The notes beneath the pieces are model-generated. The model searched no databases and was not told the origin of the DNA. It saw only the letters and a program-made list of their open reading frames with translations. Below, one piece after another: positions 1-24,575 of a DNA stretch of 24,575 nucleotides; position 1 is the first letter of the stretch, and every line of letters begins with the position of its first letter. Position numbers and translations under genes: made by a program. The stretch is taken from positions 1-24,575 of IMG/VR virus record IMGVR_UViG_3300010354_000620; one strand, written 5' to 3'. The stretch is from a virus.

Positions 1-3000
1 CCAAGACTTGGGGAAGGCTCTGGTAATTTACTAGCGTCACTAACTAGTATTTCATCATCAGTCAAAAACAAATTACTAGCTAAAGTTGTTGTTGCATTTT
101 CACTTATTCTTGTGAAAATTAAATTTTGATTCATTGGTTTGAATACCCTGAAGCCGTAAGTTTCTGTGTTGCCAACGGTGTTGCTAAATGTTCTAATTTC
201 TAAAGCATCATATAATGTACCAGGCATTAATTCTTCAGGAGCATGACTAGAATACATATCAATATATGCACCACCAACAATGTTAATATCTTCGGGTCTA
301 GTTCCTAATTCAGTATCAAGATATGTTGAGTAAATGTTTGAATCAATAACATATTGTTGATCTAAATAAATTATTGTTAAATCAACGTTACCCCCTACCT
401 GTACATCTGTTACGTTAGCCGATTGCACTATGCCGTTGATACTAATAAGATTAGCAGATTCAGTAAATCCAGGCACTGTATAAATTACATCAACAGTATT
501 AGAATTAGTTACTGATTGTAGCACATAGGCATTTGCCAGTGAATTTGCCTGTGTTATATATGATCCTACTGTAGCGGTTATACTGTTATCTAGATACAGT
601 TTATAGGTGCTTTCAACTGGTTGCCCGGTTAAACTCATTGAATCACGATCGACACTTAGTATTGTAAAGAATCCATTATTTTGAAATTCAAATGGAACAT
701 TTGCTTCAATTCTAATGGTTTTATCTGCTTCAAATCCGCGTTTAATAAAATCAATGGCTGCTATATTACCACTGTTTATTGTTAATCCTTCATAGCTAAA
801 TGAAAAAATGTTGCTTGTTAATGTAAATGCATTGGCTCTATAATTTGGACCTTGTATTTTTGTTCCCGGATAAGATAAACCATCTAATAGTAATTCAAAG
901 TTCTTTCCAGGCATACCTACGGTAGGATTATAGTATGTTGTTATTCTATCAATTGCATTTAACAGAACGTTTCCGCTATCAATTTTTACAAATCTTGTAA
1001 AATCAAAAATTGACTCTGTAGAGACATTTGCGTTTATAGCCAAGAACGCCTCATTGTTATAAACAATAATATTTCCAGAGCTTATATAGATATTACCGGT
1101 GTCATTAACAATATTACCAGTTGTGACAATTGTATTGGCATATGCTGTATTAGGAATCCATGAAACTAAATTACTAGTATATGCCAATCTGTCAAATTTA
1201 ATGTTGGCATCTATACTTCTGACTAAGTTATAGCTTAAATCTGGATTTGAGGAATAGTACTCGTTTTTTATTAACGGATATGCCGTAGCTCCTACTCCGT
1301 CGCCATTTATAAAAATATTTGGAGTTGATGTATAACCAAATCCTGGGTTAATTACAGTAACAGACTGAACTTTACCATTTCCAAATAAGTTAGTTATTGC
1401 TGTGGCGCCAGATCCACCGCCTCCGGTGATTTCTACATTTGGCGGTAATGAATAACCTAATCCAATATTACTAATAATAAAATCAGTTATTTTGTATTTG
1501 TAATTACTTGCATAATCAGAATACAAATTAGAACTAAACAATAAACTGTCTGACACTAAATTAATATTAGGACTTCTAAAAGTACCATATCTACTATCAT
1601 AGGCACTAGGTAAATCAAAATCTGTCCAGTTTCCAATGGTTGTATCTTGTCTATAGTAGATTGGTACGTATTCTCTTACTTGTGTTCTGTAGGGTTTTAC
1701 TTCCCGAATATAATCATTGTAAAAACTTTGGTTATCTCTTATATAATTTGGAAATTGCTCTAATGTTCTTAAACGGTGAAATACATCAATGAAACTCGAC
1801 TTAAAAATCCAGTCTGGAGCTTTTTGTTCTACAAAAATATAATTTAAAATATTTAAAAATAATTTGTTAAACTCGAAGCTTAGATTGTTAATAAGAATTT
1901 GCTGATAGGTGCTATCATATATATTTTGAAATTCAAATGTTGGTTGGGGATCATAAGCCACAGAATCATACACAGCAGTGTCATAACCTGTACCACTAGA
2001 AACATCATAGATTTTTGCACTTAATTCAAGTGTCCCAGCTTCTGCTCCAATTAAATTTAATGAACCGTCAGCATTTACTTCATATAGTAACCATTTATTA
2101 TTACCATCATCTAATATCTTTATGTATTCACCTTCAACAGGTGTAATCGCCTGTATATCTGAGTAAATTTCTAGTGTATAATCTATATCTTTACCGTTTT
2201 GAAATGTACTATCGTACCAAACTTTTGAATCCCAAAATAAATCAGTTTTATAACTCTGTACCTTGAATAATTCAAATGAATCGCTTGCTGAGTTATAACT
2301 GTAAATTACCCATTTTCCTTCATATGTTGAATCACTTGGAATCAGTATTTTGTATCCATTGGGAAAAGACGAAGTGTCTATGTAAGATAAATTCAAAACA
2401 CTATCAGTTTGGGCGTCAAATCCGCTCGCAGGTAAAGGATCATTCAAATATAATTTTGAAGGTGTTGTAACTAATAGAATTGGGTATCTGGCACATATTT
2501 CATTGAATAAATTTACAAAATTTTCTAATGCAGCAAGTCTGTTATTGACCATTGTTTGTCTTGGATAATTGAGAATACCAAGTTTGTCTTGTACCTTTAA
2601 GTTTGGATCAGGTACAATTTGTCCATTAGGGTCAATGCCAGCTAGACTATCTCGCAACTTTAGTATAGCTCGTGCCGGAATAGATTCTGCACCTGCATTT
2701 TGTTGAACTAGTTGCCATTCATTATGTATGATAGATGTATTACGATCAACCGGAGTGTCTAAATGCACAGCGATTTGTTCGCCTACTAATTTATTTGTAA
2801 TGTTGTATAATGCCACTGCATTATTTGAAAGTAATCCAAGATAAGGTATTCCTTGGTCTTTAGGATTTAAAATGTAGGATTCAAGAGCCTTTACACTTAA
2901 ACGACGTTTTGTTTTTACAGGATCTACTCCAGTTTTATCTTTGACCCAATAGTAATATTTTTGAGAAATAATACCAGTTACTGGATCAACAAGTGTTACA

Positions 3001-6000
3001 GATGAGTATGCACTATTATCTTGGTATTTAGGCACTCCGTCACCTACACCGTCGACATACTGACTTGGGAGAAAATCGCTTTCTACCCACTCATATATAG
3101 AAACGATACTGCCAGGAAATAAATCACCCCAATTTTTTACTCTGTATTGCAAACTAGATTGTTCATAATCAATAAATCTCAAAGTAGATAAATCTAACCA
3201 GGCTTTCCCAACTTGTCTGTCAGACCAGTAAAAAGTTTTATTATTAATTGTATCTATTCTAGTGGCCTGATTATAACTTGCTGGATCATACTCTTCTTTA
3301 AAATCTAGCTCTTGATCAACTACCCCTAATAATTTTCCTTTAATAGGATCTAAATAATCAAAAAAATCAATGATGCTCTGACTTACAGTATTGTAGATGT
3401 ATGAAGTTTTTACTGCGCCAATATCAACTCTTGGCTCTTTATACCTTATTAAATTCCACCCAGACTCTAAATTTTCGTTATAGTAATAAAATAAACTTCC
3501 GCCTTCTTCTACAACACCGGCATCATTTGATACTCCAACTATTAAATTTTTTGCTTTAATATCAATCGAAGCACCAAAATTAAATCCAGTAAGAACAGCC
3601 GCTGACAATTTTTGAGTATAGGCATATAAGTTAGGGTTATCTGCACTCTGAAATGGATTATTCATTATATTATAGATATAAACTGCGCCACTATCTTGTA
3701 TTAATGAAATAAAGTTTGTACTGTTGCTATCAAAGATAGTTTCACTAGGTAAAAAACTATCAAATCGCATTTTTGTTTCAATATCGGCACCATCGCTTGA
3801 AATTACAAGAGTTTCATTAGTCTGATCTACTGCTAGAGCCGTTCCAAAAGTTTCTCCTACTGTTTCTGGATGAAACAGAGATTGAGCGTAGATATTAATT
3901 TCAATTCCAAGATCATGCAAAGGTGTTCCTGTATTGCCAGAAACAACGTTTAGTTTGTCAGCGGCAACTACAACATCACTTACAATTTTAATCTTGTTTT
4001 CTTCTTCAAAAGCTGTTACGCCTGGTATTTCAGCTGCATTGATATTTAAAACTACTGATTCTAAAGTGCCGCCGGAAAAACTTACTTGTCTATTGTTTAT
4101 AAAGATAATTTCTCCTGGAAATACTGCACCTACCACTTTTCCACTTCCTAAACCGGTCGATGTAGCTTTAAAAATTGTTCCTACTACTGGTTGCAATAAT
4201 ATAGTTCCTGAGCTTGTGCTTTGAGTTTGCGAAATGGAATAAGTACCCGTTCTTCCTCTAGTGTAAAAATTGACTGTTGAAGATATAATAGATCCTAACA
4301 AACTAGTACTGATAAAGACTTTTAATGTTGCCGGAACTATATTAACGACATATGAATTTACAGGAATACTTGTTCCAGAAATAAATTGTCCAACTACAAT
4401 TCCAGTTACAGAAGCTACAGTAAAGTTGTTGTCCCCAAAACTTCCAGTAGCGGTTGTTGTTGCTGCTGGAGAATTAGTTGCTGTTAGCTGTTCTAAAATC
4501 TGTGTAAAAGGAATAATAGTAGGCGATTTAATATAAGTGTCTAAAGTAACCGAACCAGTGGTTACAGCGGTTATTGTTAAAACTGTTCCAGCAATTGATC
4601 CTGTAACTTCTGCACTAGGCGACGCTCCTATTTCAATGAAATCTGTATTTCCTATTTCACTAATTTGATAGGACAAACCCACTGACACGTTTGTTACTCC
4701 TTGTAGTGTATTGAATACCCTGGTTCCTGCGATTTCTCCATATACTCTACCAACATTTAGAAATCTAGTTACTAAACCAAAGCTATAACTGGCGGTAAAA
4801 TAATCAGGACTAGACACGTAAATGTTACAACCACTGTTACACATTGCTAATTGAGATCCAAAACGACTTCCTACAATCCCTGTTTCTGTTTGAAATAATG
4901 TTTGATCAAAAATAAATTGATTTGTTTCAATCTTAACAATGTTTCCTTGTTCTAAATTTGGAATTCCAAAGCCACCGTACTGAATAGTTTGGGCATCAAC
5001 CAAAAAGTAACTAGGAACATATCCAAAAGGATTATATTGTAAAGCCACTGAATCATAAATTAAAGAATTATTTAAATAAACCCTATAGACAGAATTTAAT
5101 GGATCGGGCGTAGCAAATGTATTTGTTAAACCATCTGTAGTAAATTCAATTGTTGTTCTATGATAGACATGGACGGCCCCTGAATTACTTAAATCATTTA
5201 CAGTTGTATTTTCGGCACCAACTGCAATTGTAGATCCGTCTGAATTACAAACCACCGATGATCCGAATCCGGAACCTGCTGCAGACTCGCTATTTAGAGG
5301 CAAGGTATCTAAAAATTCATAATGATTTTCTCTTTGTATGAAAATTATTTCAAGATTATTAATGGGTGCAGTTGTAAAAACAACATTTTTTCCGTTGCCG
5401 ACGGTAGTAATTGTAACAGTTATATCATTGCTGGGACTTGTGCCGCCTAAATTTGTTCCTAAAATAGTTAGTGTGTTAGTACTAAGGTAAGAGGTGCCGG
5501 CATTACTTAAAGTTAGAAAAATTCCGTATGCCTTACCAGTGGTATAACTTCCTCCAGACGGAATTGCTGCGGTTAATCCGGGAACCACACCAGTGGCAGT
5601 AAAGCTTACTCCAATAGTATTTGAAGCGGCTCCTATTAATGTAAAGTCTGTGTCGCCAACTTCAGCAATAACATAAGTTTTACCTATTTCAAATAGTTCT
5701 GCTTCGCCGGGGCCAGTTAATCGGTAGGTTACATTAAATCTTGCATTAGTTCCTGTTCCGCCAGTGGTGCTTACATTATTGTAAGATTTTATATCTGATT
5801 GAGGAAGTCCTGTGAAAGTAAAAGTATTAACACCACTGGTGTAACTACTTAGGCTATAATCAATATGAGGAAAATATTCGCTATTATCAATGATTTTTAC
5901 TACTAATACACTATTTTCATTTGTTACTGATTTATATAATGTAAATGAAGTTGTAGTACCATCACCATTTACTGTCTGACCTTCGGTCGTTCTTGGGTAG

Positions 6001-9000
6001 TTTAAAGTGTAGCAAAATACTTTGTTTGCGCCTGGGGCACCAATATATAGAAACTTAGCATCGTCCGACAGTGCCAACGACGAACCAAATTTGTCATTTA
6101 AGTTAGGAACACTATTTGTAATAACTTGTAATAATATCTGATTTTCATATACAAATACCGCTCCGGTAGAATTTAAAGATTCTGGTGCGCCTACAATTAA
6201 AAAACTTGAACTTTCAACGGTAGCTGTTGCTATTTTCTTACCAAAAGCCTGTACGTTAGAATTACTCGATGTTACAAAACCATATGCATCGAACCCATTA
6301 GTAATAATATTTTTTGTAAAAGCACTTACCTTGCCTGTTCCACTATAAGGAGCTCCTCCATATAAATAAAGTGCATTGCTGTCTGTGGCTACAGACTTAC
6401 CAAAGTTGTCGTTGCCTGTATATTGACTCTGTCCTAACAGTAATTTTGATTGATATTGCCAAGGATTACTTCTATTATAAACTGCCCAATTTCCTTCGTT
6501 ATCAAGATTTTCAACCCAAATTTTATCGTTTTCTAACCATCCGTTGTACGGTGATAAATTAACAACATCAATTGGAGTTTCTAATTTACTGCTTTGTAAT
6601 TTTAGTAAAATCCCTTGACTTACAATTTCTTCGGCGTCTAACAATACTTGAAGGTTATTAACAATTAAAATTAAAATCCTATTACTATCAACTATACCAT
6701 ATACTCGATAAATTCCATTAAAACGTGTATCGAAGTTTTTAAGTATTATTGTATCACCCTCGACTAATCCATGTTCTGCACTTATTGACAATTCTGCTAT
6801 TTCGCCTAAATTAGATTTTAATAGATAAGCATATCCTTGTAATCCAGTTGCTCTATATACATTCCATTGATTATCATAGTCTTTTGCTACCCAAATAGTG
6901 TACCCATTACCGATTTCGTCTAATATATTTTGAAAACTTGCAAAATCAGTGATATCATAAATTGCTGCATTTACGTCATCTCGATTAACAAAACCTGCAG
7001 AAGGTAAAGGTCTTAACTCTGCCGGTTCTTCTCTAGTTTCATTTCTAAGAAAGTTAGGTGTAAAAGTGCCATTTTGTTTATAAACATCTGCAAATTTAAA
7101 GGTTGTAATGTCAGTTTCATTATTTTCAGAATCATCAACTACACGGAATACTGTTGGATTATTTTTAAAACTATTGTCTGATAGTATAAATTCAATAAAT
7201 CTATTAGAAGATAATGCTCCATATTCGCCAACTCGAATAGCCCAATTTTCATAAAAATCTAACTCGGTGTTTAAATTATTAAATTGCGCCCCTTTAAGAG
7301 CGTTTATTGCATTCTGAGTTCCGCTTTGTTTTAATAAACCCTGATAAAATTTAGACTGTGTTGTAACGTCTATACCTAAATTTGAAAAATATTCCCTGGG
7401 CCTGAAACCAATCAAGCCATTACTGAATAATTGCACCTTTTCATCTAACGGCTGATCATTAATGTCATAAAATTTCAATGAACTGCTTGCATTAGTGGCA
7501 AAATTGTTAATTATACCCGATCTTAATTCACTTTCACTTATTTGTTGCCATTTTGATGTTTGAAATTGGTCAGAGGCAGTAATATTTTCTAGAGCAGTAA
7601 AAAATCTAAATTTCAGTGATACAATAGATCCTTTGAGATAATCTTGACCCGGCCGCCATTCATCAACGTTTTTATCACTGTAAATGTACCCCGGTAACTC
7701 AAGACTTCCGTTCCATTGATTAGTCTTGGCCCCCACTAATCTTAACCTATATTGTCTATTACCTGTTTCGGGAACATAGATAATATCATTGAATACCGTT
7801 GTATTATCTAATAACAAAAGATGTTCATATTGTACAAAATTAAATTCAGCTAATCCTATAACTTGTTCTTTTAAAGATTTTAAAGTAAAAACATTATCTT
7901 CTCGATAGACACTAAAATTGTTTTTCTTAATAGGTTGATAATTAATATCTAAAACTCTACTGTCTCCGGAAATGTTAGTAATTTCATCTACAACTTCATT
8001 TTGACTTTTTACAGTAATAGAATCTGATATTGGACTTAATACTATTACACTTCCCGGTTTCCAACCTTGTACAGACCAGTGTAGGAATTCTTTGGCACTT
8101 AATACCCAATCTTTGATCGAATTAAGCTGATTGTCTCTATTATCAAATATAAATCCTAAAGTTTCTAAATATCTTTGATAGCTGACTAGAAAATCTATAA
8201 TATGTTGAGTGGAATTAAATTCTGTTCCATAAGGCACAGATATTACCTGATTTGTTGCATCTCTATAAATTGTTCCGCGCTGCCCTGAAATTTCTATTGT
8301 ATAAGCATTGCTGTTTATTTGACTAGGTATTATAGTAAAAAATGGATTGTTAGTGTTGAATCCACTTACTGTATATCCTGCAGCCGAACGTTCGATTATT
8401 ACAGCTGAATAAATTAATTTATTTGTAGGCGACCCTTTGTATAGTTCAATAGAATAATTTTCTTCAGGAACTATTACACTATCATTGATACTACTAGGAC
8501 TTAACTGTTCAGCTAAAAGTTCTATAAATTTTTTGTCCGAAAATCCCGCCATCCTGTAAGATAACTGAACCGATATAGAACTTAAATTTTCTTTTATTAA
8601 ACCACTGGCATCTTCAACCCCGGTATTTTTTACATAATCTCGTATCCAATTTATGTAGCCAGCCGAACGAACTATTTCACCAGAATCATTTACAAAACCA
8701 TTAACATTTATGAAGTTTGGCTGTAAATGCAAGTTAAATTCTTTGTTTATAAATTGACCAGTAATTGTGCTTCTGAAATAATTTTGTAGATCAACAAGTA
8801 AAGAAAAATATTTTGCAGGTTTTCCTAATGCCATTGCAAGTTGTACAGCGAACGGGAAATCACTGCTCCTACGCCAGGCTAGTTCTGTAGGTCCTATATC
8901 TCCAACAGCATAACTTAGATTGCCCATATCACTAGTAAAATCAGTTACTAGAAATTTTGGATTGCGCAGATTACCATTATCATCTACAGGTATAATGTCA

Positions 9001-12000
9001 GTTAAACCTCTACGACTTAGTTTTCCGTCTGGGCCTATAAGTCTTGCCCGACTATATCTAAAGTCAATACCTGCTCTAGGACCTGCATGAATGTAACCTA
9101 TTTCTAAATCGTTCCAAAGAGTAAAGTTGCCTCCGGTGTATGGAGCTGGACCATATCGAGATTCCCAATAATCTGGTTTTTCACTAAATCCTAACATCTC
9201 CCAAGGGTGTGTATGTGGTCTATCAGTGTCGTAAAAATATCTATAGATACTTCTCCATGTACCAGGTAAATTTTCTCCATTTACGACATCACGTAATTTT
9301 TTATAATTCCATGTAAAAGCATCCGATGAATTAAATACGTTATTTGTAGTAAAATCAACTCTATTAGTTCCGACCCACTTTAAAAAACTTTTTGTTAATA
9401 GTTGATTATATTCTTTTAGACTATAATCAGTAATTCTCCATTTACCCGGAATATAATCATTTAGATTAAAGTTAATAGGATCATAATGAATTTTACAATT
9501 ATTATAAATTCTTCTTTCTAATTCAATTAATAAATCATCTCTATAATCATTAAACGCCGGAGTAATACTTCCATCATGTCCTTGAATCACTTGTATAGGT
9601 GTTCTATAAGTATCATCTAAATATTTTACCGGGGCATATTTTGGATACAATCCTAACTTTGTAGGAGTTTCTGGTACATAACTACCGTCAGTGTTGTTGT
9701 ATTCCACAATAGTAAGAATATCATTGTACAAAAGATTGTAACTATTTTGAATTACTACTGCTGGCCTAGTCTGATCAAAATAATAATCTTGTCCTTTAAC
9801 AAGTAAAAAAGTAGTAGTTTGCCCTTCAAGTTGGCGTGTCACATAAACATATACAGCTTTATTACTTGCAACGGTATCATTAAAAATATTTGTTATTTCG
9901 TATGCACGAATATCAGTATCAAATACAACATAGTTAGGTAAAACTACCTTATCGGCCTCTCCGTGAGGTACCATGTCACTATAATGATAAGGAAAACTAT
10001 CATTTTTTACATTGTTGATTACCGACATAATAGTATCAACACTTCCTGCTACGTTTGATCTATCCAAGTCTAAACTACTAGCTAATTCTAAAAATTTAAT
10101 TTTAAATTGTGTATATTCTTTAGATGCTAATTGTAATGCATTAGCAAAATTCATAACCGGGTGATTTAAAAATAAACCAGCATATATCATTGGCGCACTA
10201 TGCTGTAAAATACTGCCTCCAAAATTACTGTAAGACAAATCTCTCAAATTACTTTTACCTGGCACAGCACCTACAACGTTCTTAGTATTAGAACTAGTCT
10301 CAATGAGATGATTTCTTATCTGCCCTAGTGTCAAGTTTTGTAAATTAATATTCAAACTATTAATATCAAAATTTACGGGAATTTGATAAAATCCTAATTT
10401 TGACACTGAAGTTGAACTGTAAATGCTGATAAAAACAGTATCTCCTACAGTGAGTTCTGTAGGGTCAATTATGATAGCAAGTTTATCAACAACATCGGCA
10501 TACTTATGCTTATCACTGCTTAATAACCTTTTATTAATTACAATTTTAGTATTAGGAACATCTACATCTCGATCAGGACGAATATCAACAAAAAATAAAT
10601 TAGTGCTGCCATCATAATTAAATGTGAATACTTGATATTGCTTACTAAAGTAAGAATTGATTGCCCAAATATTTGTGCGAATGCTTGATGTTAGATTTAC
10701 ATTTTGTTGTAAAAGTCCTAAACTGATTGGAATACTGTTTGTTACTCCGGATGAAAGTATGTAATTGAATTCGTCAAGTTCAATGTTATTTTCAAATTGA
10801 ATATCGCCTTGTGTAAATAGATTTTTATAACTTAGTGGAAAGCCTAGTACAGCATCAACACTACCCGATCCTTCTTTGTATGAAAATATTTTAGTGCCTG
10901 TAAAATTTGATCCAGGATAAACAGACTGATCCCCAAAACTTATTCCTTCGTCATTAATGATATCAAATTTTGGAGCCTGATTTATTAATGTTTTCTGCTG
11001 TGACAAAACCCAACTATTACCGTTAAAGTGCCATTGCTTAGTACCGTTGGTTCCTTTTTTAACAATTAACGTGTTATTTGTTGAAACACTAGCATCCGCA
11101 GCTTCTTCTATGTAAGCTCTATAAACAAAAGGTAATGGAGTATCTTTTGTTACTTCTATACTGAAGTTGTAAATTTTGTTTCTTACCTGCAAATTTTCAT
11201 CTTCGCTGAAAATTACCCTATCGCCGTCGGTTAATGTTACTGATCTATCACCTACAGTAATAGTTAATTGTGTAGTTGAAGTGCATAAAACACCCTGTAC
11301 CTGGCTAAATGCATTGGTAATGATATCATCAAGTATATCAACCGGAGCTTTTGCTACGGCTCCAAAATTAAATAATTGAAAATTTGGTTTGAATTCAATT
11401 ATAGGTCTTTGGGCTCTTAAATTTTGATCAACAATTAAATCAACATTATTATATTGTGCTGTCTTTTCAATTACTTCGACATGAAACCATCTATTACTTC
11501 TAGACCAAGCATTTAAATCTTGACTGCTTTTATTAATGGTCAAATAATCTTGATTTGATAAATCATTATTTAATTCAGGACTTACTAAGTCGGAAGCTAA
11601 AACTAATTTTATAGATTCGCCAACACCTTCAACATAAAAAGTTTTATTTGCATATGGTTCAGTGACTGTAGAATCAAAAGTTATTTTTAAACCGTTTGTG
11701 AATATAATCCCATTGGGACTTCTATAACTTTTTTGTCCTATAATTTTAAGTGCAGGGTCAATTGAATCATTAGCAACATTAAAAATTTGAATTGCTCCGA
11801 CTGCACTATCGCTGACATCACTTTGATAATATAATATATCAAGCTGCGAGCTGATATCTGGTACTTGATTTAATATGCCTCGCCTACTATAAAATTCTTT
11901 ACCTACATTATTAACACCAGATGTTACTCTAACCTTAGATTCATCATTGACTCCAATTATAGGCTGTAAAACTATCCTATCTATACCAAAAGCGTCCGGT

Positions 12001-13070
12001 AAAACACTTATTTGAAAAATGTCGTTTCTTTCGCCAAACGGAACATCATCGGCAGGATCATAGGGGTAACTATCTTGGTCAAAGTTAGTAATATCATAAT
12101 TAGCTTGATAAACAACACCACCTTGAATTGAAATAGGTGCATCTGACCAAAATTCCGTATCACTAAACTCATTATTAATAAAAATTAATCTTTTGCCATC
12201 CAATGAGGTAGAAGGTCCGTCTATTCCTCCTAGGGTAAAATCTAAATCTTCAATTGAAACACCTTGTAAATCTCGATAACTTAAGGCTGTGGCAAATTCA
12301 ACACTTCCAACTAATGGCATCGAAGTCCATTCAACTTGGGAGTCTATTGGAGGCACGATGAATGTTAGGGTGCCAACATCTACTCCGTTATCATCTACTC
12401 CTAATACCGATCGTGTAGTAAGATTAGGAGAATTACTATTTGTTCCCGAAACCCCAGGAGCCGTTTGAATGTAAAATTTATTACCTGGTGAATTAATTAC
12501 AAACTTATAGGTGCCGCCTCTTACTAAAGAAAGAAACGGATTAGATATATTCCCATATCCATCAAATCTAAATGTTTGTGAAACAGTATCAAATTGTACT
12601 GTATATGTTCTTTCAAGTGGAATATCGCTGTTGCTTACAATTACTGCGTCTGGTCCATTTTCTAACCAGTAATACTGAGAATAATTGACAAATTTATCTA
12701 AGTCAATTTTAGGATCATAAGAGTAAAACTCATTTTCAAATAATCGACTATGATTATTTGTTAATCCTCCGTAATAGGCAATTTTGTTTATAATGTCAGA
12801 ATATGTTGTAGCAAACAACAAATTATTGTTTGTGCTATCTTTGATGTTAATGCTAGGTTCTAGTTGATAATCCTGCCGTTGCTTTGTTGGTTCAGTAATA
12901 TAGCTATCAGAATTTTTATATGCGGGTGTAAGTTTTCTACCAATATAACCATTAACTTTTATTAAATCTGGTTCGCTGACCAATTGATCCGTAATAGCAT
13001 TTAGAAACTTTTTATTTGGATCTGTTCTAAAAATTTCAGGTAAAAATTGTAATGTTTTGAAAACCGCCAT
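1..13070 (-). CDS. Giant virion (baseplate/tail-associated) structural protein, partial at its C-terminus
   Basis: I read this frame codon by codon from the ATG at 13070-13068 to base 1 and found no stop, giving at least 4356 codons; the C-terminus lies outside the window. An AGGA at 13077-13080 sits 6 bases before the ATG, and gp6 ends 14 bases upstream. Residues 1 to about 2200 and 3200 to 3750 look like the very long structural proteins of marine T4-like phages; a landmark is KPDYWESRYGPAPYTGGN near residues 1297-1317. Residues about 2220-3200 hold seven FG-GAP-type repeats with inserted modules, including two G-x-T-D-F modules. Residues about 3860-3928 hold two Gly/Tyr repeats. No signal peptide or membrane segment was seen. 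The position after gp6 is where T4 has gp7, so a peripheral wedge or fibre-like role is likely. That is inference: I do not see clear gp7 similarity. Confidence 0.93.
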   Translation of the reverse strand, partial: MAVFKTLQFLPEIFRTDPNKKFLNAITDQLVSEPDLIKVNGYIGRKLTPAYKNSDSYITEPTKQRQDYQLEPSINIKDSTNNNLLFATTYSDIINKIAYYGGLTNNHSRLFENEFYSYDPKIDLDKFVNYSQYYWLENGPDAVIVSNSDIPLERTYTVQFDTVSQTFRFDGYGNISNPFLSLVRGGTYKFVINSPGNKFYIQTAPGVSGTNSNSPNLTTRSVLGVDDNGVDVGTLTFIVPPIDSQVEWTSMPLVGSVEFATALSYRDLQGVSIEDLDFTLGGIDGPSTSLDGKRLIFINNEFSDTEFWSDAPISIQGGVVYQANYDITNFDQDSYPYDPADDVPFGERNDIFQISVLPDAFGIDRIVLQPIIGVNDESKVRVTSGVNNVGKEFYSRRGILNQVPDISSQLDILYYQSDVSDSAVGAIQIFNVANDSIDPALKIIGQKSYRSPNGIIFTNGLKITFDSTVTEPYANKTFYVEGVGESIKLVLASDLVSPELNNDLSNQDYLTINKSSQDLNAWSRSNRWFHVEVIEKTAQYNNVDLIVDQNLRAQRPIIEFKPNFQLFNFGAVAKAPVDILDDIITNAFSQVQGVLCTSTTQLTITVGDRSVTLTDGDRVIFSEDENLQVRNKIYNFSIEVTKDTPLPFVYRAYIEEAADASVSTNNTLIVKKGTNGTKQWHFNGNSWVLSQQKTLINQAPKFDIINDEGISFGDQSVYPGSNFTGTKIFSYKEGSGSVDAVLGFPLSYKNLFTQGDIQFENNIELDEFNYILSSGVTNSIPISLGLLQQNVNLTSSIRTNIWAINSYFSKQYQVFTFNYDGSTNLFFVDIRPDRDVDVPNTKIVINKRLLSSDKHKYADVVDKLAIIIDPTELTVGDTVFISIYSSTSVSKLGFYQIPVNFDINSLNINLQNLTLGQIRNHLIETSSNTKNVVGAVPGKSNLRDLSYSNFGGSILQHSAPMIYAGLFLNHPVMNFANALQLASKEYTQFKIKFLELASSLDLDRSNVAGSVDTIMSVINNVKNDSFPYHYSDMVPHGEADKVVLPNYVVFDTDIRAYEITNIFNDTVASNKAVYVYVTRQLEGQTTTFLLVKGQDYYFDQTRPAVVIQNSYNLLYNDILTIVEYNNTDGSYVPETPTKLGLYPKYAPVKYLDDTYRTPIQVIQGHDGSITPAFNDYRDDLLIELERRIYNNCKIHYDPINFNLNDYIPGKWRITDYSLKEYNQLLTKSFLKWVGTNRVDFTTNNVFNSSDAFTWNYKKLRDVVNGENLPGTWRSIYRYFYDTDRPHTHPWEMLGFSEKPDYWESRYGPAPYTGGNFTLWNDLEIGYIHAGPRAGIDFRYSRARLIGPDGKLSRRGLTDIIPVDDNGNLRNPKFLVTDFTSDMGNLSYAVGDIGPTELAWRRSSDFPFAVQLAMALGKPAKYFSLLVDLQNYFRSTITGQFINKEFNLHLQPNFINVNGFVNDSGEIVRSAGYINWIRDYVKNTGVEDASGLIKENLSSISVQLSYRMAGFSDKKFIELLAEQLSPSSINDSVIVPEENYSIELYKGSPTNKLIYSAVIIERSAAGYTVSGFNTNNPFFTIIPSQINSNAYTIEISGQRGTIYRDATNQVISVPYGTEFNSTQHIIDFLVSYQRYLETLGFIFDNRDNQLNSIKDWVLSAKEFLHWSVQGWKPGSVIVLSPISDSITVKSQNEVVDEITNISGDSRVLDINYQPIKKNNFSVYREDNVFTLKSLKEQVIGLAEFNFVQYEHLLLLDNTTVFNDIIYVPETGNRQYRLRLVGAKTNQWNGSLELPGYIYSDKNVDEWRPGQDYLKGSIVSLKFRFFTALENITASDQFQTSKWQQISESELRSGIINNFATNASSSLKFYDINDQPLDEKVQLFSNGLIGFRPREYFSNLGIDVTTQSKFYQGLLKQSGTQNAINALKGAQFNNLNTELDFYENWAIRVGEYGALSSNRFIEFILSDNSFKNNPTVFRVVDDSENNETDITTFKFADVYKQNGTFTPNFLRNETREEPAELRPLPSAGFVNRDDVNAAIYDITDFASFQNILDEIGNGYTIWVAKDYDNQWNVYRATGLQGYAYLLKSNLGEIAELSISAEHGLVEGDTIILKNFDTRFNGIYRVYGIVDSNRILILIVNNLQVLLDAEEIVSQGILLKLQSSKLETPIDVVNLSPYNGWLENDKIWVENLDNEGNWAVYNRSNPWQYQSKLLLGQSQYTGNDNFGKSVATDSNALYLYGGAPYSGTGKVSAFTKNIITNGFDAYGFVTSSNSNVQAFGKKIATATVESSSFLIVGAPESLNSTGAVFVYENQILLQVITNSVPNLNDKFGSSLALSDDAKFLYIGAPGANKVFCYTLNYPRTTEGQTVNGDGTTTSFTLYKSVTNENSVLVVKIIDNSEYFPHIDYSLSSYTSGVNTFTFTGLPQSDIKSYNNVSTTGGTGTNARFNVTYRLTGPGEAELFEIGKTYVIAEVGDTDFTLIGAASNTIGVSFTATGVVPGLTAAIPSGGSYTTGKAYGIFLTLSNAGTSYLSTNTLTILGTNLGGTSPSNDITVTITTVGNGKNVVFTTAPINNLEIIFIQRENHYEFLDTLPLNSESAAGSGFGSSVVCNSDGSTIAVGAENTTVNDLSNSGAVHVYHRTTIEFTTDGLTNTFATPDPLNSVYRVYLNNSLIYDSVALQYNPFGYVPSYFLVDAQTIQYGGFGIPNLEQGNIVKIETNQFIFDQTLFQTETGIVGSRFGSQLAMCNSGCNIYVSSPDYFTASYSFGLVTRFLNVGRVYGEIAGTRVFNTLQGVTNVSVGLSYQISEIGNTDFIEIGASPSAEVTGSIAGTVLTITAVTTGSVTLDTYIKSPTIIPFTQILEQLTATNSPAATTTATGSFGDNNFTVASVTGIVVGQFISGTSIPVNSYVVNIVPATLKVFISTSLLGSIISSTVNFYTRGRTGTYSISQTQSTSSGTILLQPVVGTIFKATSTGLGSGKVVGAVFPGEIIFINNRQVSFSGGTLESVVLNINAAEIPGVTAFEEENKIKIVSDVVVAADKLNVVSGNTGTPLHDLGIEINIYAQSLFHPETVGETFGTALAVDQTNETLVISSDGADIETKMRFDSFLPSETIFDSNSTNFISLIQDSGAVYIYNIMNNPFQSADNPNLYAYTQKLSAAVLTGFNFGASIDIKAKNLIVGVSNDAGVVEEGGSLFYYYNENLESGWNLIRYKEPRVDIGAVKTSYIYNTVSQSIIDFFDYLDPIKGKLLGVVDQELDFKEEYDPASYNQATRIDTINNKTFYWSDRQVGKAWLDLSTLRFIDYEQSSLQYRVKNWGDLFPGSIVSIYEWVESDFLPSQYVDGVGDGVPKYQDNSAYSSVTLVDPVTGIISQKYYYWVKDKTGVDPVKTKRRLSVKALESYILNPKDQGIPYLGLLSNNAVALYNITNKLVGEQIAVHLDTPVDRNTSIIHNEWQLVQQNAGAESIPARAILKLRDSLAGIDPNGQIVPDPNLKVQDKLGILNYPRQTMVNNRLAALENFVNLFNEICARYPILLVTTPSKLYLNDPLPASGFDAQTDSVLNLSYIDTSSFPNGYKILIPSDSTYEGKWVIYSYNSASDSFELFKVQSYKTDLFWDSKVWYDSTFQNGKDIDYTLEIYSDIQAITPVEGEYIKILDDGNNKWLLYEVNADGSLNLIGAEAGTLELSAKIYDVSSGTGYDTAVYDSVAYDPQPTFEFQNIYDSTYQQILINNLSFEFNKLFLNILNYIFVEQKAPDWIFKSSFIDVFHRLRTLEQFPNYIRDNQSFYNDYIREVKPYRTQVREYVPIYYRQDTTIGNWTDFDLPSAYDSRYGTFRSPNINLVSDSLLFSSNLYSDYASNYKYKITDFIISNIGLGYSLPPNVEITGGGGSGATAITNLFGNGKVQSVTVINPGFGYTSTPNIFINGDGVGATAYPLIKNEYYSSNPDLSYNLVRSIDANIKFDRLAYTSNLVSWIPNTAYANTIVTTGNIVNDTGNIYISSGNIIVYNNEAFLAINANVSTESIFDFTRFVKIDSGNVLLNAIDRITTYYNPTVGMPGKNFELLLDGLSYPGTKIQGPNYRANAFTLTSNIFSFSYEGLTINSGNIAAIDFIKRGFEADKTIRIEANVPFEFQNNGFFTILSVDRDSMSLTGQPVESTYKLYLDNSITATVGSYITQANSLANAYVLQSVTNSNTVDVIYTVPGFTESANLISINGIVQSANVTDVQVGGNVDLTIIYLDQQYVIDSNIYSTYLDTELGTRPEDINIVGGAYIDMYSSHAPEELMPGTLYDALEIRTFSNTVGNTETYGFRVFKPMNQNLIFTRISENATTTLASNLFLTDDEILVSDASKLPEPSPSL
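1285..1490 (-). repeat. Two tandem Gly/Tyr repeats (G-x-GY ... GATA) in the distal giant protein
   Basis: Two adjacent units share a pattern. One reads IGLGYSLPPNVEITGGGGSG then ATA; the next reads NPGFGYTSTPNIFINGDGVG then ATA. Each has a G-x-G-Y turn, a Pro, a short alternating strand, a Gly-rich loop and GATA. They lie at about residues 3860-3928. Units of this kind are common in long phage tail proteins; here only two copies are visible before the protein continues out of the window. Confidence 0.75.
4580..4690 (-). repeat. G-x-T-D-F module, copy B in the giant protein (diverged)
   Basis: Around residues 2793-2830 the giant protein reads VGLSYQISEIGNTDFIEIGA. The first half of the module (Y-x-I, then G-N-T-D-F, then I-G-A) is preserved, while the later F-x-A-T-G strand is not recognisable. 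It lies in the long insertion between propeller blades 5 and 6. It is less complete than copy A, so homology is likely but not certain. Confidence 0.65.
5590..5690 (-). repeat. G-x-T-D-F module, copy A in the giant protein
   Basis: Around residues 2460-2494 the giant protein reads GKTYVIAEVGDTDFTLIGAA, then a segment ending VSFTATGV. This matches the modules in gp6 and in the lysozyme-like protein: G-x-x-Y-x-I, then G-x-T-D-F-T-x-x-G-A, then an I-G-x-x-F strand. It lies in the long insertion between propeller blades 3 and 4. Its function is unknown; a small beta-rich surface domain is an inference. Confidence 0.85.
5800..5950 (-). repeat. Inserted beta module starting GDGTTTSFTL, between propeller blades 3 and 4
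   Basis: About 50 residues begin GDGTTTSFTL, continue through a V-L-V-V-K-I strand and a Y-S-L strand, and end with a T-F-T-F-T-G-L-P strand. The layout resembles a small beta-sandwich module that I recall in phage tail proteins. A second segment with similar layout (TTDGLTNTFATPDPLNSVY) follows blade 4 near bases 5050-5160. Calling it a module is pattern recognition only. Confidence 0.45.
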
Positions 13071-13076
13071 TTCTAA

Positions 13077-13080
13077 TCCT
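13077..13080 (-). promoter_or_regulatory. Ribosome binding site for the giant gene
   Basis: AGGA on the minus strand lies 6 bases before the ATG at 13070 and just after the gp6 stop. It fixes the chosen start and implies translation from the gp6 message. Confidence 0.75.
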
Positions 13081-13084
13081 ATAA

Positions 13085-16000
13085 TTATGAATTGTTCAAC
13101 TGAGCAGCAGTAATAGCGGTAATAATTTGCACGTTATCTACTGTTGCTGCACTTATTAATATTTCGTCTGGATCCGCATTAATTTGATATAATGTACCAA
13201 ATTGACTCTCAACGTTCGACGGAACAATGATTATACTACTAACATTAGGAACTAGAACAGAATGCAGATACGCACTCAATTCACTAAAATAAAATGTTTC
13301 GCCAAAATCCCAATTATTAACATCAAAATATGTGTTTATTGCACCAACTACTTGACTTTTAACTTCGTTGTCGCTAATTACAATATTTGGATTTTTGATT
13401 ACTTTAAATGTTGCCCTTAATGCAGGATTGGCTTTATTTCCAAATAATGGTTTAAATACAGCTGGATTATAAATTATGCTATCACTAATAGTCTTAAATG
13501 ACTCAATTGATCCAAACTCAGTTTTAAGTTCATCTATGGTCGGCGAACTGGGCTCCAATAATTTTCCACTGGTATCCGTTATATAGGCTACATAATCGTT
13601 GGCATATGTTTTTGTTAAAATGTAAAAATCAATTAGATTATTAGGACTAGGATCTATTCTTCGATTATTAGGTGCATTGTGTTTGTATTGAAATTGTAAA
13701 AACTGCCTACCAACTCGCGCAATGTAATTAGTAACAACGTTTAATATAGGTCCATTAGACTGATAAAATGTCGGAACATTCAGTGCTGGCACTGTTGTAT
13801 CGCCCTCGACTGCGTAAAATATAGTTCCGCTGGCATATAATGTAATATTATCAATGATTTGAATTTTTGTGTTGTATGCAGTTACAACTAAATCAGGATC
13901 AACCGGATTGTAAATTAAAAAATTAAACTGGTCAGTTGATTGAATAAAAAAAACATTTTTATTTTGCGGATTTGTCGAAGGTGCTACTAGTTCAAGAAAC
14001 AAATCTGGATTATCTGGTACTTCATCTAGGTTATCATCAGGAAAAGTTATTTTAATTTTTCTATTATCATCTACTCCATCTGAGCCTATTGCTCTACCCC
14101 AAATACGGTAAATCTGACTATAAAATAAAGCATTACTAGTATCAGGTGCAGTATTTGTCCTTAGTACCTTAATACTATCAATTAAAGTTGTTGCTGTTCT
14201 ACTATCATACACTCTGATGTCTGGGTCAAAATAGAATCTTGTTTCTCTTTCACTTTCAAAAAAATAATTTATTCCACGGCTTACCACTGTGTATTCACCA
14301 GCTGAGAAACTTAATTTTAAAAACCAACTGTCATCAAGTGCGGTTCCTGCTGTACTACCAGCGTTTGTTAAACTAAATTCACCATCGCCAAGATTTTGAC
14401 TCTCTACAATTTTCCATGACATTGTAGGAATATCATATCTTATACCAAATGTTTTATAGCTTAAAACTTGTAAAATAATATCATTTATTAAAGATTCAGA
14501 CCAGTCATTGGCGAACACAGGAATTATTTCACTTATTATAGCGCCTGTCGGAATCACCGCACTCAGTGTGGCAGTTTCGGTAAGACCCGGAGTATCATAA
14601 TTTATGATACTAGCCCATAGGCTGCTCTTTTGATATTCAGTTAATATAGTTCCTGTTTGTAGCTGATTTTGTGCATCAAAATATTTGCCTTCAGGAGCAA
14701 TAAATTTAACAAGACTTCCTTGCACTAAGAAAGTGTAGCTCGGACTTGTAAATAAACCCAAACTCCTGCTACCTGTATTTGAAGTCTGTGTCCAAGTTCC
14801 TAATATACCTACGGTTCCTGTGCCAGTGCCGGCACTAGTCGCAACAAAAATTGTTCCAACTGTATTTTGAGATGCACCGTAACTTGTAAAATCAGTAGTT
14901 CCAATTGTTAGTATTTTATAAACTTTTCCAGACACCATTGAACTTGCAACTATAGACGCACCTAATGGTTGGGTGCGAGTAGCAGTCTCATAATATAAGT
15001 GTCTGGTAGTAATTCCAGATATCAATGGCTTTACAGTATTTCTAACTATTGCATTAACCTCGGTGGTGCTTGTAAATTGAAAATTTTCCGTTTCCTGATA
15101 ACTTTCCTTATAAATTATACCATCTTGAGCAAAAATATTTGTACTGGAGTATTTTCCTGTTGCATCAATAACATCTAAATATCTGCTTATACCTGAACTA
15201 GTTCTATTTGTTGCTTTTAATTTAAGGATATTATTGAACGAAGTAAAAGGTAAGACATTATAATCTTCACCTGTTACCATTCTATTTTGTGTATAGTATT
15301 GTTGCGGAGCATTAGTTCTGATACTGTCTAAAGATTCTCTTGAAATAGCGTTAGTGACTGTATATTGAAGACTTGCTCTTATCGTTAGAGTTTCTGCTCT
15401 TCCTGTTCTTCCTCGATACGGGATATTAATTGTAATACCTGCCATTTCGTCAGGAGTAATTTTATATGTTAGATTATTGCTTGTTCTGTAATAAAGCCTA
15501 TAATTCCCTACAGGTATGTTAGTAAAAGACCCATCGCCAAAAACTAAATCAATTTGATCATTCGCTCTAGTTGCAACACTGTATAAATTTCTATCTTCTA
15601 CATTATTATAAATTACATTTACACCATTCACCGCAGGAATTTGAGTCCAAAGATCATTAATTGTATTAGTTGAAGTTAAAGAAAATAACCATACATCTGT
15701 ATTGTTTATATTATCAAAATTAATATTAACTATTCTATTTGGCAAACTTTCAGTTATTGTAAAGTCCAAACTGGCAAATGTGCCTTGTTTAAAATAGAAA
15801 AAATAACCTGTATTATTGCTTGCATTTCCTTGATTATCATTTCTATATAAAAAATTAAAAGCACCGCCAGGTCTAGGAGTAGATTCATAAATGAATTCTT
15901 GGTTAGAGCTTGTTGCACTTACAATTTCAAAAGGATAAGATACTCCTGCTATGGAAGAAGTATATGGATATGTAGGAGTTACACCTGCAATAATATCAAT

Positions 16001-16564
16001 GGTATATTCATCTGTTCGCACACCGCTTAAGATTTTGGAACCACCGGGTTTTCCTATAGCCTGCGAAGCTATCAAAGAAGCGTTTAATATAGCAGTAAAT
16101 TGTTCTAACCAATTTTCATTACTTGTATCATTCCAATTGATAACTGTGTTGCTAAGATTAATACCAGCACTATCAAGAATAGATTCTGATGTGCTTACAC
16201 TGTCAAATTTAAGAAAACCTGCTGCAGGTGTGCTTCTTTTAGGATTATAACTTACTAATCTAGCTAACTTTAGAATACTATCACGACGTTCTGCTGTATC
16301 TATAAAATTTTCTCTGGCATTTAAATCGGCACGAAATGCTAAACTTTGTCCTAAAAACGCTATAAGATCAATTAATGCAATATATTCGGAGCTTTCAGTA
16401 AAGTCATTGAAATCTTCAGGATAATACGTGCGTAAGTATTCAATCATTGACTTACGCAAAGTTTCATAATCAAAACTTTGAAAATCAGCTTCTCTAAAAG
16501 TTTGATAGATTTTAGTCCAATCTTGTTGAACTAGTAAGCTAGTTTGTCTTGTAGTAATGGCCAT
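13085..16564 (-). CDS. 6: Baseplate wedge protein gp6 (enlarged)
   Basis: The first ~130 residues are a clear gp6/gpJ-type N-terminus: a segment predicted to be helical (about residues 33-47) followed by FNDFTESSEYIALIDLIAFL and NARENFIDTAERRDSILKLA. In T4, gp6 dimers bridge neighbouring wedges and form the inner baseplate ring. At 1159 aa this copy is far longer than T4 gp6 (660 aa). Residues about 335-355 (DLVFGDGSFTNIP) and 379-387 (INIPYRGRT) resemble conserved baseplate-J motifs. Residues about 545-586 are an inserted G-x-T-D-F module, shared with two neighbouring proteins. The start is the first ATG of the frame; no strong Shine-Dalgarno sequence precedes it, only a GGG 7 bases upstream. 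The gene lies 47 bases after gp25 and 14 before the giant gene. Confidence 0.93.
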   Translation of the reverse strand: MAITTRQTSLLVQQDWTKIYQTFREADFQSFDYETLRKSMIEYLRTYYPEDFNDFTESSEYIALIDLIAFLGQSLAFRADLNARENFIDTAERRDSILKLARLVSYNPKRSTPAAGFLKFDSVSTSESILDSAGINLSNTVINWNDTSNENWLEQFTAILNASLIASQAIGKPGGSKILSGVRTDEYTIDIIAGVTPTYPYTSSIAGVSYPFEIVSATSSNQEFIYESTPRPGGAFNFLYRNDNQGNASNNTGYFFYFKQGTFASLDFTITESLPNRIVNINFDNINNTDVWLFSLTSTNTINDLWTQIPAVNGVNVIYNNVEDRNLYSVATRANDQIDLVFGDGSFTNIPVGNYRLYYRTSNNLTYKITPDEMAGITINIPYRGRTGRAETLTIRASLQYTVTNAISRESLDSIRTNAPQQYYTQNRMVTGEDYNVLPFTSFNNILKLKATNRTSSGISRYLDVIDATGKYSSTNIFAQDGIIYKESYQETENFQFTSTTEVNAIVRNTVKPLISGITTRHLYYETATRTQPLGASIVASSMVSGKVYKILTIGTTDFTSYGASQNTVGTIFVATSAGTGTGTVGILGTWTQTSNTGSRSLGLFTSPSYTFLVQGSLVKFIAPEGKYFDAQNQLQTGTILTEYQKSSLWASIINYDTPGLTETATLSAVIPTGAIISEIIPVFANDWSESLINDIILQVLSYKTFGIRYDIPTMSWKIVESQNLGDGEFSLTNAGSTAGTALDDSWFLKLSFSAGEYTVVSRGINYFFESERETRFYFDPDIRVYDSRTATTLIDSIKVLRTNTAPDTSNALFYSQIYRIWGRAIGSDGVDDNRKIKITFPDDNLDEVPDNPDLFLELVAPSTNPQNKNVFFIQSTDQFNFLIYNPVDPDLVVTAYNTKIQIIDNITLYASGTIFYAVEGDTTVPALNVPTFYQSNGPILNVVTNYIARVGRQFLQFQYKHNAPNNRRIDPSPNNLIDFYILTKTYANDYVAYITDTSGKLLEPSSPTIDELKTEFGSIESFKTISDSIIYNPAVFKPLFGNKANPALRATFKVIKNPNIVISDNEVKSQVVGAINTYFDVNNWDFGETFYFSELSAYLHSVLVPNVSSIIIVPSNVESQFGTLYQINADPDEILISAATVDNVQIITAITAAQLNNS
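14807..14932 (-). repeat. G-x-T-D-F module inserted in gp6
   Basis: gp6 residues about 545-586 read GKVYKILTIGTTDFTSYGAS followed by an N-T-V-G-T-I-F strand and a GTGTGT tail. This is the most canonical copy in the window and matches the copy in the lysozyme-like protein strand for strand, including the GTGT tail. Confidence 0.9.
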
Positions 16565-16583
16565 AAAAATACCCGTGTTCTAG

Positions 16584-16591
16584 TATTTATC
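16584..16591 (-). promoter_or_regulatory. Candidate T4-type late promoter before gp6
   Basis: GATAAATA on the minus strand differs from the T4 late consensus TATAAATA by one base and is followed by CTAG. It lies 19 bases before the gp6 start. A start point about 6 bases downstream would give a short leader. The match is short and the region A+T-rich, so chance occurrence is possible. Confidence 0.4.
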
Positions 16592-16611
16592 GATAAAAAA
16601 ATATGGTATTT

Positions 16612-16989
16612 TTATGATAGAGATAGAGAATTTAATTCTCTGTCAAATTTGAGTAATAAAACGTCGCTTAAATTTTCTGGTAAAAACACAAGTTCAAGTT
16701 GTATTTGAAAGCCAATATCAAGTTGATCAATTAAAACATTATCAACTCTTAATCTAGGATCGTAATTAACAATTCTTTTAATATCTTCCACTATCAACGC
16801 CTTAACATCTGCAGTTAAAGGCTCAAACAACATACTCCAAATAATGCTACCAAAATTTGGATTCATTAGTTTTTCGCCTTTTCTAATTGCAAAATGATTA
16901 AGTAAGTCTCTTTTTACAAGATCTAAATCAGTTAACCTAAATTTTTTACTTTGGTCAATTGTGCTAAATCCCTTATATCTAATAGCCAT
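16612..16989 (-). CDS. 25: Baseplate wedge protein gp25 (GPW/gp25 family)
   Basis: At 125 aa this is close to T4 gp25 (132 aa). The gp25/GPW pattern is visible: an N-terminal DLVKRDLLNHFAIRKGEKLM segment, then the family signature NPNFGSIIWSMLFEP (residues about 43-57), a helix with VKALIVEDIKRIVNYDPR, and a final pair of strands. gp25 joins gp6 and gp53 at the inner wedge and contacts the sheath; the family fold also occurs as the sheath-initiating subunit of other contractile systems. The start lies 8 bases after the stop of the lysozyme-like gene, and no Shine-Dalgarno sequence is visible before it. A late-promoter-like AATAAATA lies immediately upstream. Confidence 0.95.
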   Translation of the reverse strand: MAIRYKGFSTIDQSKKFRLTDLDLVKRDLLNHFAIRKGEKLMNPNFGSIIWSMLFEPLTADVKALIVEDIKRIVNYDPRLRVDNVLIDQLDIGFQIQLELVFLPENLSDVLLLKFDRELNSLSLS

Positions 16990-16994
16990 AAATG

Positions 16995-17002
16995 TATTTA
17001 TT
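16995..17002 (-). promoter_or_regulatory. Candidate T4-type late promoter before gp25
   Basis: AATAAATA on the minus strand overlaps the stop region of the upstream gene and ends 5 bases before the gp25 ATG. If used with T4 geometry, transcription would begin at or next to the start codon, giving a leaderless message. A single 8-base match in A+T-rich DNA is weak evidence. Confidence 0.3.
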
Positions 17003-18095
17003 CTACAATATCAGCGCCAAGATTGCTTATTGCATATCTACCTGCATTAAAGTAAATATGCCCTGGACGATTTTGACTATCTACAGTTTGACCAGTTTCG
17101 CGCCAGACTTTAGCTTTTGTAGCTATTGAGTAATTTTCAATATTTAATACTCCATTTGAATTAGAAACAGTCTGACCTAATTGTGGATTACCTAAGTCTT
17201 GATATTGATACGCTACAGATAGCATACCTGCAACTATATCTTTCGTATCCCCTGTCTTTATTGCTCCTGCTTTTATAAGTTTCACATAATTTTCTTTTAG
17301 AAATTGGTACATAATGTTGTTCTGAATCTGGTCGCTTAAAAGGAAAAGATCAGTAGTATCTATGTTATCTTTATCTGTCCAATTGCCGTTGTTATCTAAA
17401 TAGCCGTAATTTATTAACAACCACTGGCTTATCTGATATCTTCCTAGTTTTAAAGGACTCACAGTGAAAGTTACATTTCCAGTTATAGTATGATTACTTT
17501 TAAGAATAATTTCATTATTTGAACCAATAGCTGTACCGGTACCTATTCCAACTGCATTAGCAATAAAAATTTCGCCAATTGATGCACTATAAGCTCCAAT
17601 AGCAGTAAAGTCTGTTGTTCCAATACTTGAAATAGTGTAGGTACATCCGGGAATAAAATTGCCCGCTGTTATATTGCCACTAACTGATTTTTCAACTATT
17701 ACTGAATTATTACCAAAGGCTCCTGTGCTTGGATTAACAATATTTGCCACCATTCCTACTTTTAAGTCGCTATGGTCAGAATTAGTTATAGTGACTGTGG
17801 CAATATTTGCATAATACATCCCCCAATGAGATATTATTGTATTAGCGTTAATGTTGGCTTTGAATATACCTAATTCTGGCTTACCTACTGTAGCTAATTT
17901 GGTGTTATTGTTACTCTCAAGTTGTCCTAGTTGAATGGCTAAACATTTTGTTTCAAATTTATTTAAATTAGGTATGTTTTCTTTTACAGAATTAATCGTT
18001 TCCCCTTTAGGAAAAGTGAGATTGCCTAATACTATCCTACTAGCCGGATTTATCACTGCATTTTTTTTTGCTTCATCAATTCCAATATCTGCCAT
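16998..18095 (-). CDS. Lysozyme/transglycosylase-like baseplate protein, domain split by an insertion
   Basis: Residues 46-65 (KFETKCLAIQLGQLESNNNT) resemble the catalytic helix of lysozyme/SLT-like enzymes, with E60 in an E-S-N-N context. Residues 218-222 (GRYQI) and the following QWLLINYGYL match the segment that normally follows soon after. Residues 289-297 (AGMLSVAYQ) and 330-355 (VWRETGQTVD, then YFNAGRYAI) look like the C-terminal part of such domains. Between the two halves (about residues 75-215) lies an insertion with a G-x-T-D-F module. The likely job is local peptidoglycan cutting during infection, as the lysozyme domain of T4 gp5 does. The gene directly follows the gp5-like spike, which lacks that domain. 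AGGA at 18104-18107 supports the start. No signal peptide is seen. Enzyme assignment is from motifs alone. Confidence 0.6.
   Translation of the reverse strand: MADIGIDEAKKNAVINPASRIVLGNLTFPKGETINSVKENIPNLNKFETKCLAIQLGQLESNNNTKLATVGKPELGIFKANINANTIISHWGMYYANIATVTITNSDHSDLKVGMVANIVNPSTGAFGNNSVIVEKSVSGNITAGNFIPGCTYTISSIGTTDFTAIGAYSASIGEIFIANAVGIGTGTAIGSNNEIILKSNHTITGNVTFTVSPLKLGRYQISQWLLINYGYLDNNGNWTDKDNIDTTDLFLLSDQIQNNIMYQFLKENYVKLIKAGAIKTGDTKDIVAGMLSVAYQYQDLGNPQLGQTVSNSNGVLNIENYSIATKAKVWRETGQTVDSQNRPGHIYFNAGRYAISNLGADIVE
17523..17654 (-). repeat. G-x-T-D-F module inserted in the lysozyme-like protein
   Basis: Residues about 148-191 read IPGCTYTISSIGTTDFTAIG, then an S-I-G-E-I-F-I-A-N strand and a GIGTGTA tail. 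The layout matches the gp6 copy. It lies between the presumed catalytic E60 and the GRYQI motif at 218-222. Confidence 0.9.
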
Positions 18096-24258: not shown

Positions 24259-24575
24259 ATGTCTAATCTTTTTAAACGAGCAGCAGTCTGCACAGATATT
24301 CATTTTGGCTTAAAAAGCAACAGTCAAACACACAACGACGATTGTTTAAATTTCATTAAATGGTTTACGACCAAAGCTAAGGAGGAAGGATGTGAAACAG
24401 CGTTTTTTCTTGGAGATTGGCATAACAATCGTGCTAGTATCAATATTGTCACTCTTAACTATAGTCTCCGTGCTCTGGAACATCTCTCAGCCAACTTTGA
24501 TACTGTGTACTTTATCCCTGGCAATCATGATTTATATTATCGTGACAAGCGTGATGTTCAAAGTGTGGAATGGGC
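24259..24575 (+). CDS. 47: Recombination endonuclease subunit gp47 (SbcD/Mre11-like), partial
   Basis: The first 105 residues carry the metallophosphoesterase motifs in order: TDIHFG (12-17), GDWHNNRA (52-59) and PGNHD (87-91). These coordinate two metal ions in the Mre11/SbcD/gp47 family. With gp46 the protein forms the nuclease that resects DNA ends for phage recombination and recombination-dependent replication. The gene is cut by the right edge of the window; T4 gp47 is 339 aa, so about a third is present. It starts 38 bases after gp55 in the same direction and has its own promoter candidate. The ATG is chosen because MSNLFKRAAVCTDIHFG places the first motif at the usual distance from the N-terminus. 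Confidence 0.93.
   Translation, partial: MSNLFKRAAVCTDIHFGLKSNSQTHNDDCLNFIKWFTTKAKEEGCETAFFLGDWHNNRASINIVTLNYSLRALEHLSANFDTVYFIPGNHDLYYRDKRDVQSVEW

Follow-up and report, generated by a model that had tools for sequence, protein, structure and literature searches.

Why should one small domain recur in neighbouring virion proteins that otherwise have nothing in common? The window analysed here, a stretch of viral DNA of 24,575 nucleotides taken as a whole, covers the baseplate region of a T4-like contractile phage, coded on the minus strand, and three mutually unrelated proteins in it host one domain of ~50 residues:

3..13070, minus strand: giant virion-like protein (host gene), an open reading frame of 4356 residues that continues beyond the window
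13085..16564, minus strand: gp6, baseplate wedge subunit (host gene; PHROG 10646, E 4e-300)
16998..18095, minus strand: baseplate hub/tail lysozyme-like protein, 365 residues (host gene; PHROG 27932, E 2.7e-9, residues 236-323)

The length of the giant protein is a lower bound (at least 4356 residues). The gp6 model resembles T4 gp6 (5iv5) and the phiKZ baseplate, and an OB-domain gp5-like protein is also encoded on the minus strand of the window. At the far end, on the plus strand, a partial open reading frame (24259-24573) was judged metallophosphoesterase-like (T4 gp47-like) by eye only.

A preliminary description of this DNA had claimed four copies of the domain. Scoring the window with a profile of 78 copies, none of them from the window, confirmed that all four places are real:

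14804..14953, minus strand: domain copy in gp6 (E 1.1e-20)
17523..17672, minus strand: domain copy in the hub/lysozyme-like protein (E 6.6e-18)
5559..5708, minus strand: domain copy 1 of the giant protein (E 4.4e-17)
4623..4685, minus strand: N-terminal half of copy 2 of the giant protein (Y-x-I...GNTDF...IGA; E 1.4e-6 alone)
4188..4622, minus strand: 145-residue insert dividing copy 2 after the IGA loop (no family assigned)
4128..4187, minus strand: C-terminal half of copy 2 of the giant protein (VGTIFKATSTGLGSGKV; E 2.9e-4 alone)

The intact copies thus match at E values of 1e-20 to 4e-17, while 650 shuffled window open reading frames gave zero matches to the same profile, so that homology between copies in unrelated hosts, as had been proposed, is directly observed. 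Copy 1 of the giant protein had been placed at 5590-5690, which is too short, and the fourth copy is not intact, its halves lying 145 residues apart; joined in silico, they score E 6.4e-13. The dividing insert contains low-complexity, β-repeat-like stretches (TGSIAGTVLTITAV...GTYSISQTQ and NNFTVASVTGIVVGQFISGTSIP...), which look like other small virion modules, mutually nested. The flanks of the hub/lysozyme-like copy also resemble a second small module divided by the domain, but this match is weak (E about 0.01) and only suggestive. Separately, the giant protein carries an FG-GAP_2 repeat (window 3303-5900, minus strand, residues 204-246, E 7.7e-5), and a planctomycete protein (L169) likewise has an FG-GAP_2 repeat beside the domain.

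An alignment of 81 copies spans 50 columns, with the consensus xxAGSFVxGxxYxILTVGTTDFTxIGAxSNTVGxxFxATGxGSGTGTA. One narrow pattern led to 356 confirmed relatives in viral contigs, and a second to at least 538; conservation of the Asp in TDF was not used as evidence, as the search pattern biases toward Asp. The 81 copies showed no coherent match to any Pfam, PHROG or NCBIfam family, only scattered weak ones, the best being YjbE (E 0.00051, 23 members), PHROG (0.011) and NCBIfam (0.002), and a PDB sequence search with the domain returned nothing significant. No earlier description of the domain was found in the open literature, subscription papers being mostly outside coverage.

AlphaFold2 predicts for the hub/lysozyme-like copy (pLDDT 97.7) a strand at residues 11-16, a helix at 22-25 and strands at 35-37 and 47-49. 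Full-length gp6 is modelled only moderately overall (mean pLDDT 64); at residues 537-587, however, it shows an equal order of elements with a pLDDT of about 90. Different folds for the copies would have refuted the idea of a shared domain, and these predictions agree. A Foldseek search of BFVD recovered the substructure in 11 independently predicted proteins of uncultured viruses (TM 0.73-0.97), and a Foldseek search of the PDB found no counterpart to the fold. The models hence describe what is predicted to be a single compact, independently folding unit, with no experimental structure and with a predicted fold for which the searches returned no solved counterpart. Similarity to carbohydrate-binding domains, which the preliminary description had proposed to look for, was not found, the structure search giving no match to such folds.

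Recurrence in unrelated virion proteins, which the preliminary description had proposed to look for with a profile, was found on a large scale: 349 copies in 223 loci, falling into 58 host-protein clusters. Since some of these loci were retrieved via the host protein, the copy and locus counts are not prevalences. All viral clusters with a PHROG function (24/24) are virion parts, an observed restriction that applies to annotated hosts; about ten clusters carry no assigned function. If virion proteins made up half of the candidates, the probability of 24/24 would be about 6e-8, which is only a rough guide because the clusters are not fully independent. Annotated hosts in the head and neck are the major head protein, the adaptors Ad1 and Ad2, head closure Hc3 and an internal virion protein; those in the tail are two kinds of baseplate wedge, hub, sheath, distal and minor tail proteins, fibres and spikes. 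The suggestion that the domain decorates the baseplate is therefore too narrow, as it also occurs in capsid, sheath, neck and fibres.

This distribution bears on whether the domain might be a pure structural cement, contacting neighbouring subunits of capsid, sheath and baseplate without any cell-binding role. Its occurrence in high-copy shell proteins would fit, and a tail-cementing role has been proposed for additional sheath domains (PMC9230969). The same sequence, however, occurs among wholly different neighbours, in fibres, adaptors and hub, which makes a shared contact surface unlikely, and we regard cementing alone as improbable.

Carriers are mostly uncultivated tailed phages. Cellular genomes (257 Gb) contained only 21 loci, in which the classifiable host proteins have Ig, FG-GAP, fn3 or autotransporter repeats, typical of surface proteins. 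Single-query searches found the domain in 3/50,697 phage records, namely cyanophage S-TIM54 and two spring-water phages. One of the queries was an edited copy, and three BLAST searches of phage collections gave no match, most likely through masking of low complexity, so that 3/50,697 is a floor.

Comparison of filled and empty sites shows directly that the domain is an insertion. Among distinct gp6 sequences, 36/63 have the domain and 27/63 lack it, with a clean gap at one site; had it been integral to gp6 in all relatives, the idea of an inserted domain would have failed. On a tree of these 63 sequences its presence and absence need at least three changes, and the copy is retained across most of a deep clade. 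One gp6 without the domain (L138) retains roughly nine additional residues where the insertion would sit, possibly a scar of loss. The major capsid protein exists with the domain (L208) and without it (L273), the flanks being near-identical on both sides. The tail sheath has it in L276-type proteins and lacks it in L299 and many others, with two insertion points within one region (L213-type versus L017), and head-tail adaptors L363-L366 and others are cleanly without it. Together with the predicted fold, these empty sites support the earlier proposal of one insertion domain dispersed among unrelated virion proteins. The filled and empty pairs cover gp6, capsid, sheath, adaptor and the following loop of the giant protein, not giant-protein copies 1 and 2:

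11166..11354, minus strand: giant-protein loop, empty in the window (alignment of 48 orthologues)

This loop is empty in most relatives as well. It holds a single copy in L109, L111, L112 and L121, a copy inside a copy in L090, L091, L096, L097, L104 and L146, and another module in L115, L116, L118 and L120; on the strength of the alignment, we read it as a hotspot that takes different small modules in different relatives. Self-nesting of the domain also occurs in L074 and L029. The cut falls directly after the IGA loop in copy 2 of the window, in L074 and in the nested pairs.

The preliminary description had called the domain mobile, which holds in an evolutionary sense only, recent DNA transposition not being seen. 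Rickettsia palindromic elements, about 100-150 bases long, sit in-frame within coding genes that are unrelated to one another, and a comparable selfish element, copying itself into coding genes, would account for in-frame insertion into unrelated genes and for nested copies (L074, L029, L090, L096, L104, L146). The DNA gives this reading little room. Hairpins or palindromes in the domain DNA of eight copies did not exceed those of shuffles (z -1.58 to +2.00), and copies at the same locus, 62% identical in DNA, are almost as diverged at synonymous sites as copies elsewhere (pS 0.65 versus 0.75, near saturation). The A2 copies were picked by similarity to the query, which inflates their mean identity. 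Near-saturated synonymous sites and the absence of hairpins therefore indicate, for this sample, a protein-coding segment that spreads slowly rather than an active DNA element. Conservation sits at the protein level and annotated hosts are virion genes only, both of which also speak against a selfish element. DNA-level transposition is thus not supported by the available sequences, and we consider a self-copying element very unlikely. An intein-like element and one like the Rickettsia elements were both rejected, given the size of the domain, the absence of hairpins and a synonymous divergence close to saturation. Some gp6 matches that seemed 1.1 kb longer, as with inteins, turned out to be matches to this domain in the gene upstream.

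Selection on the domain protein is evident in gp6 pairs at 80-85% identity, in which the domain is 72% identical and pN/pS is 0.28 for the domain versus 0.15 for whole gp6. By this comparison, the domain in gp6 is under purifying selection, yet freer than its host protein. Such faster evolution is also compatible with a tolerated passenger, which would have entered permissive virion loops by chance recombination, would have no function and would keep its fold only since misfolding harms the host. Presence or absence that varies inside single protein families points the same way, as does the loop of the giant protein that swaps unrelated modules. On the other hand, the gp6 copy has persisted across most of a deep clade even though it can be removed cleanly, and virion-only annotated hosts would require other loop-tolerant proteins to be absent. 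A functionless passenger stays a serious rival, although we think it the less probable account.

On balance we favour, without regarding it as settled, a loop-inserted domain held by purifying selection that acts as surface decoration, exposure and binding being inferred in the absence of ligand data. The route that we infer is rare illegitimate or short-homology recombination, by which the coding segment would be copied from one virion gene to another. Being small and compact, with ends that are probably adjacent, as inferred from the strand pattern, the domain could enter a loop without breaking the host fold. Copies on capsid, sheath, neck, baseplate and fibres would then create a multivalent outer surface, if they are exposed as we infer. 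Such a decorated surface may weakly bind cell-surface or particulate polymers, or may stabilise the shell, and selection would retain the domain for its decoration of the particle. Against decoration stands the absence of a match to a known binding fold and of any ligand or experimental structure. Bolder still, and doubtful at present, is a scheme in which a set of small modules of new fold, this domain among them, spreads among phages through a dedicated process that inserts them in-frame into loops of virion proteins alone, the modules nesting in one another and covering whole particles with a shared adhesive coat.

Whatever its role, the libraries searched contain no model for the domain, although hundreds of viral contigs carry it. 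Naming it would correct annotation, because unrelated proteins that share the domain can be mistaken for homologues. It also marks insertion-tolerant loops on nearly every part of tailed phages, the major capsid protein included, and, as a single domain that is small, expressible and cleanly deletable, it makes the purpose of accessory virion domains directly testable.

How does the domain compare with known systems? With Rickettsia palindromic elements it shares in-frame insertion, demonstrated here for gp6, capsid, sheath and adaptor; it differs in having neither a palindrome nor DNA identity between copies, and in that its annotated hosts are virion genes only. Carbohydrate-binding repeats of phage tail proteins, such as BACON in crAssphage (PMC6949934), are likewise accessory domains in multiple copies. 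Unlike these repeats, which it matches neither in sequence nor in structure, the present domain is spread over many proteins, not arrayed in one. Domain shuffling in phages is a subject of PMC10684548. The closest comparison is with phage Ig-like domains, for example Hoc of T4 and extra sheath domains (Fraser et al. 2006 via PMC10385173, PMC9230969). Ig-like domains occur in unrelated virion proteins, are exchanged horizontally and have been proposed to bind cell-surface carbohydrates weakly (PMC9230969, PMC10385173); for the extra sheath domains, a contribution to adhesion or stability has been suggested (PMC9230969). The present domain differs in its size of about 50 residues, half of theirs, in its predicted strand-helix-strand-strand order instead of an Ig sandwich, and in sitting inside loops and even inside itself. 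No Ig model in Pfam matched the 81 copies, and no Ig fold was found in the PDB structure search; we do not class the domain as phage Ig-like because this defining fold test failed. It resembles them as a small β-containing accessory domain of many unrelated virion proteins (here all 24 annotated clusters), horizontally exchanged and differing in presence among relatives, and by this analogy it probably decorates the particle surface as phage Ig-like domains do.
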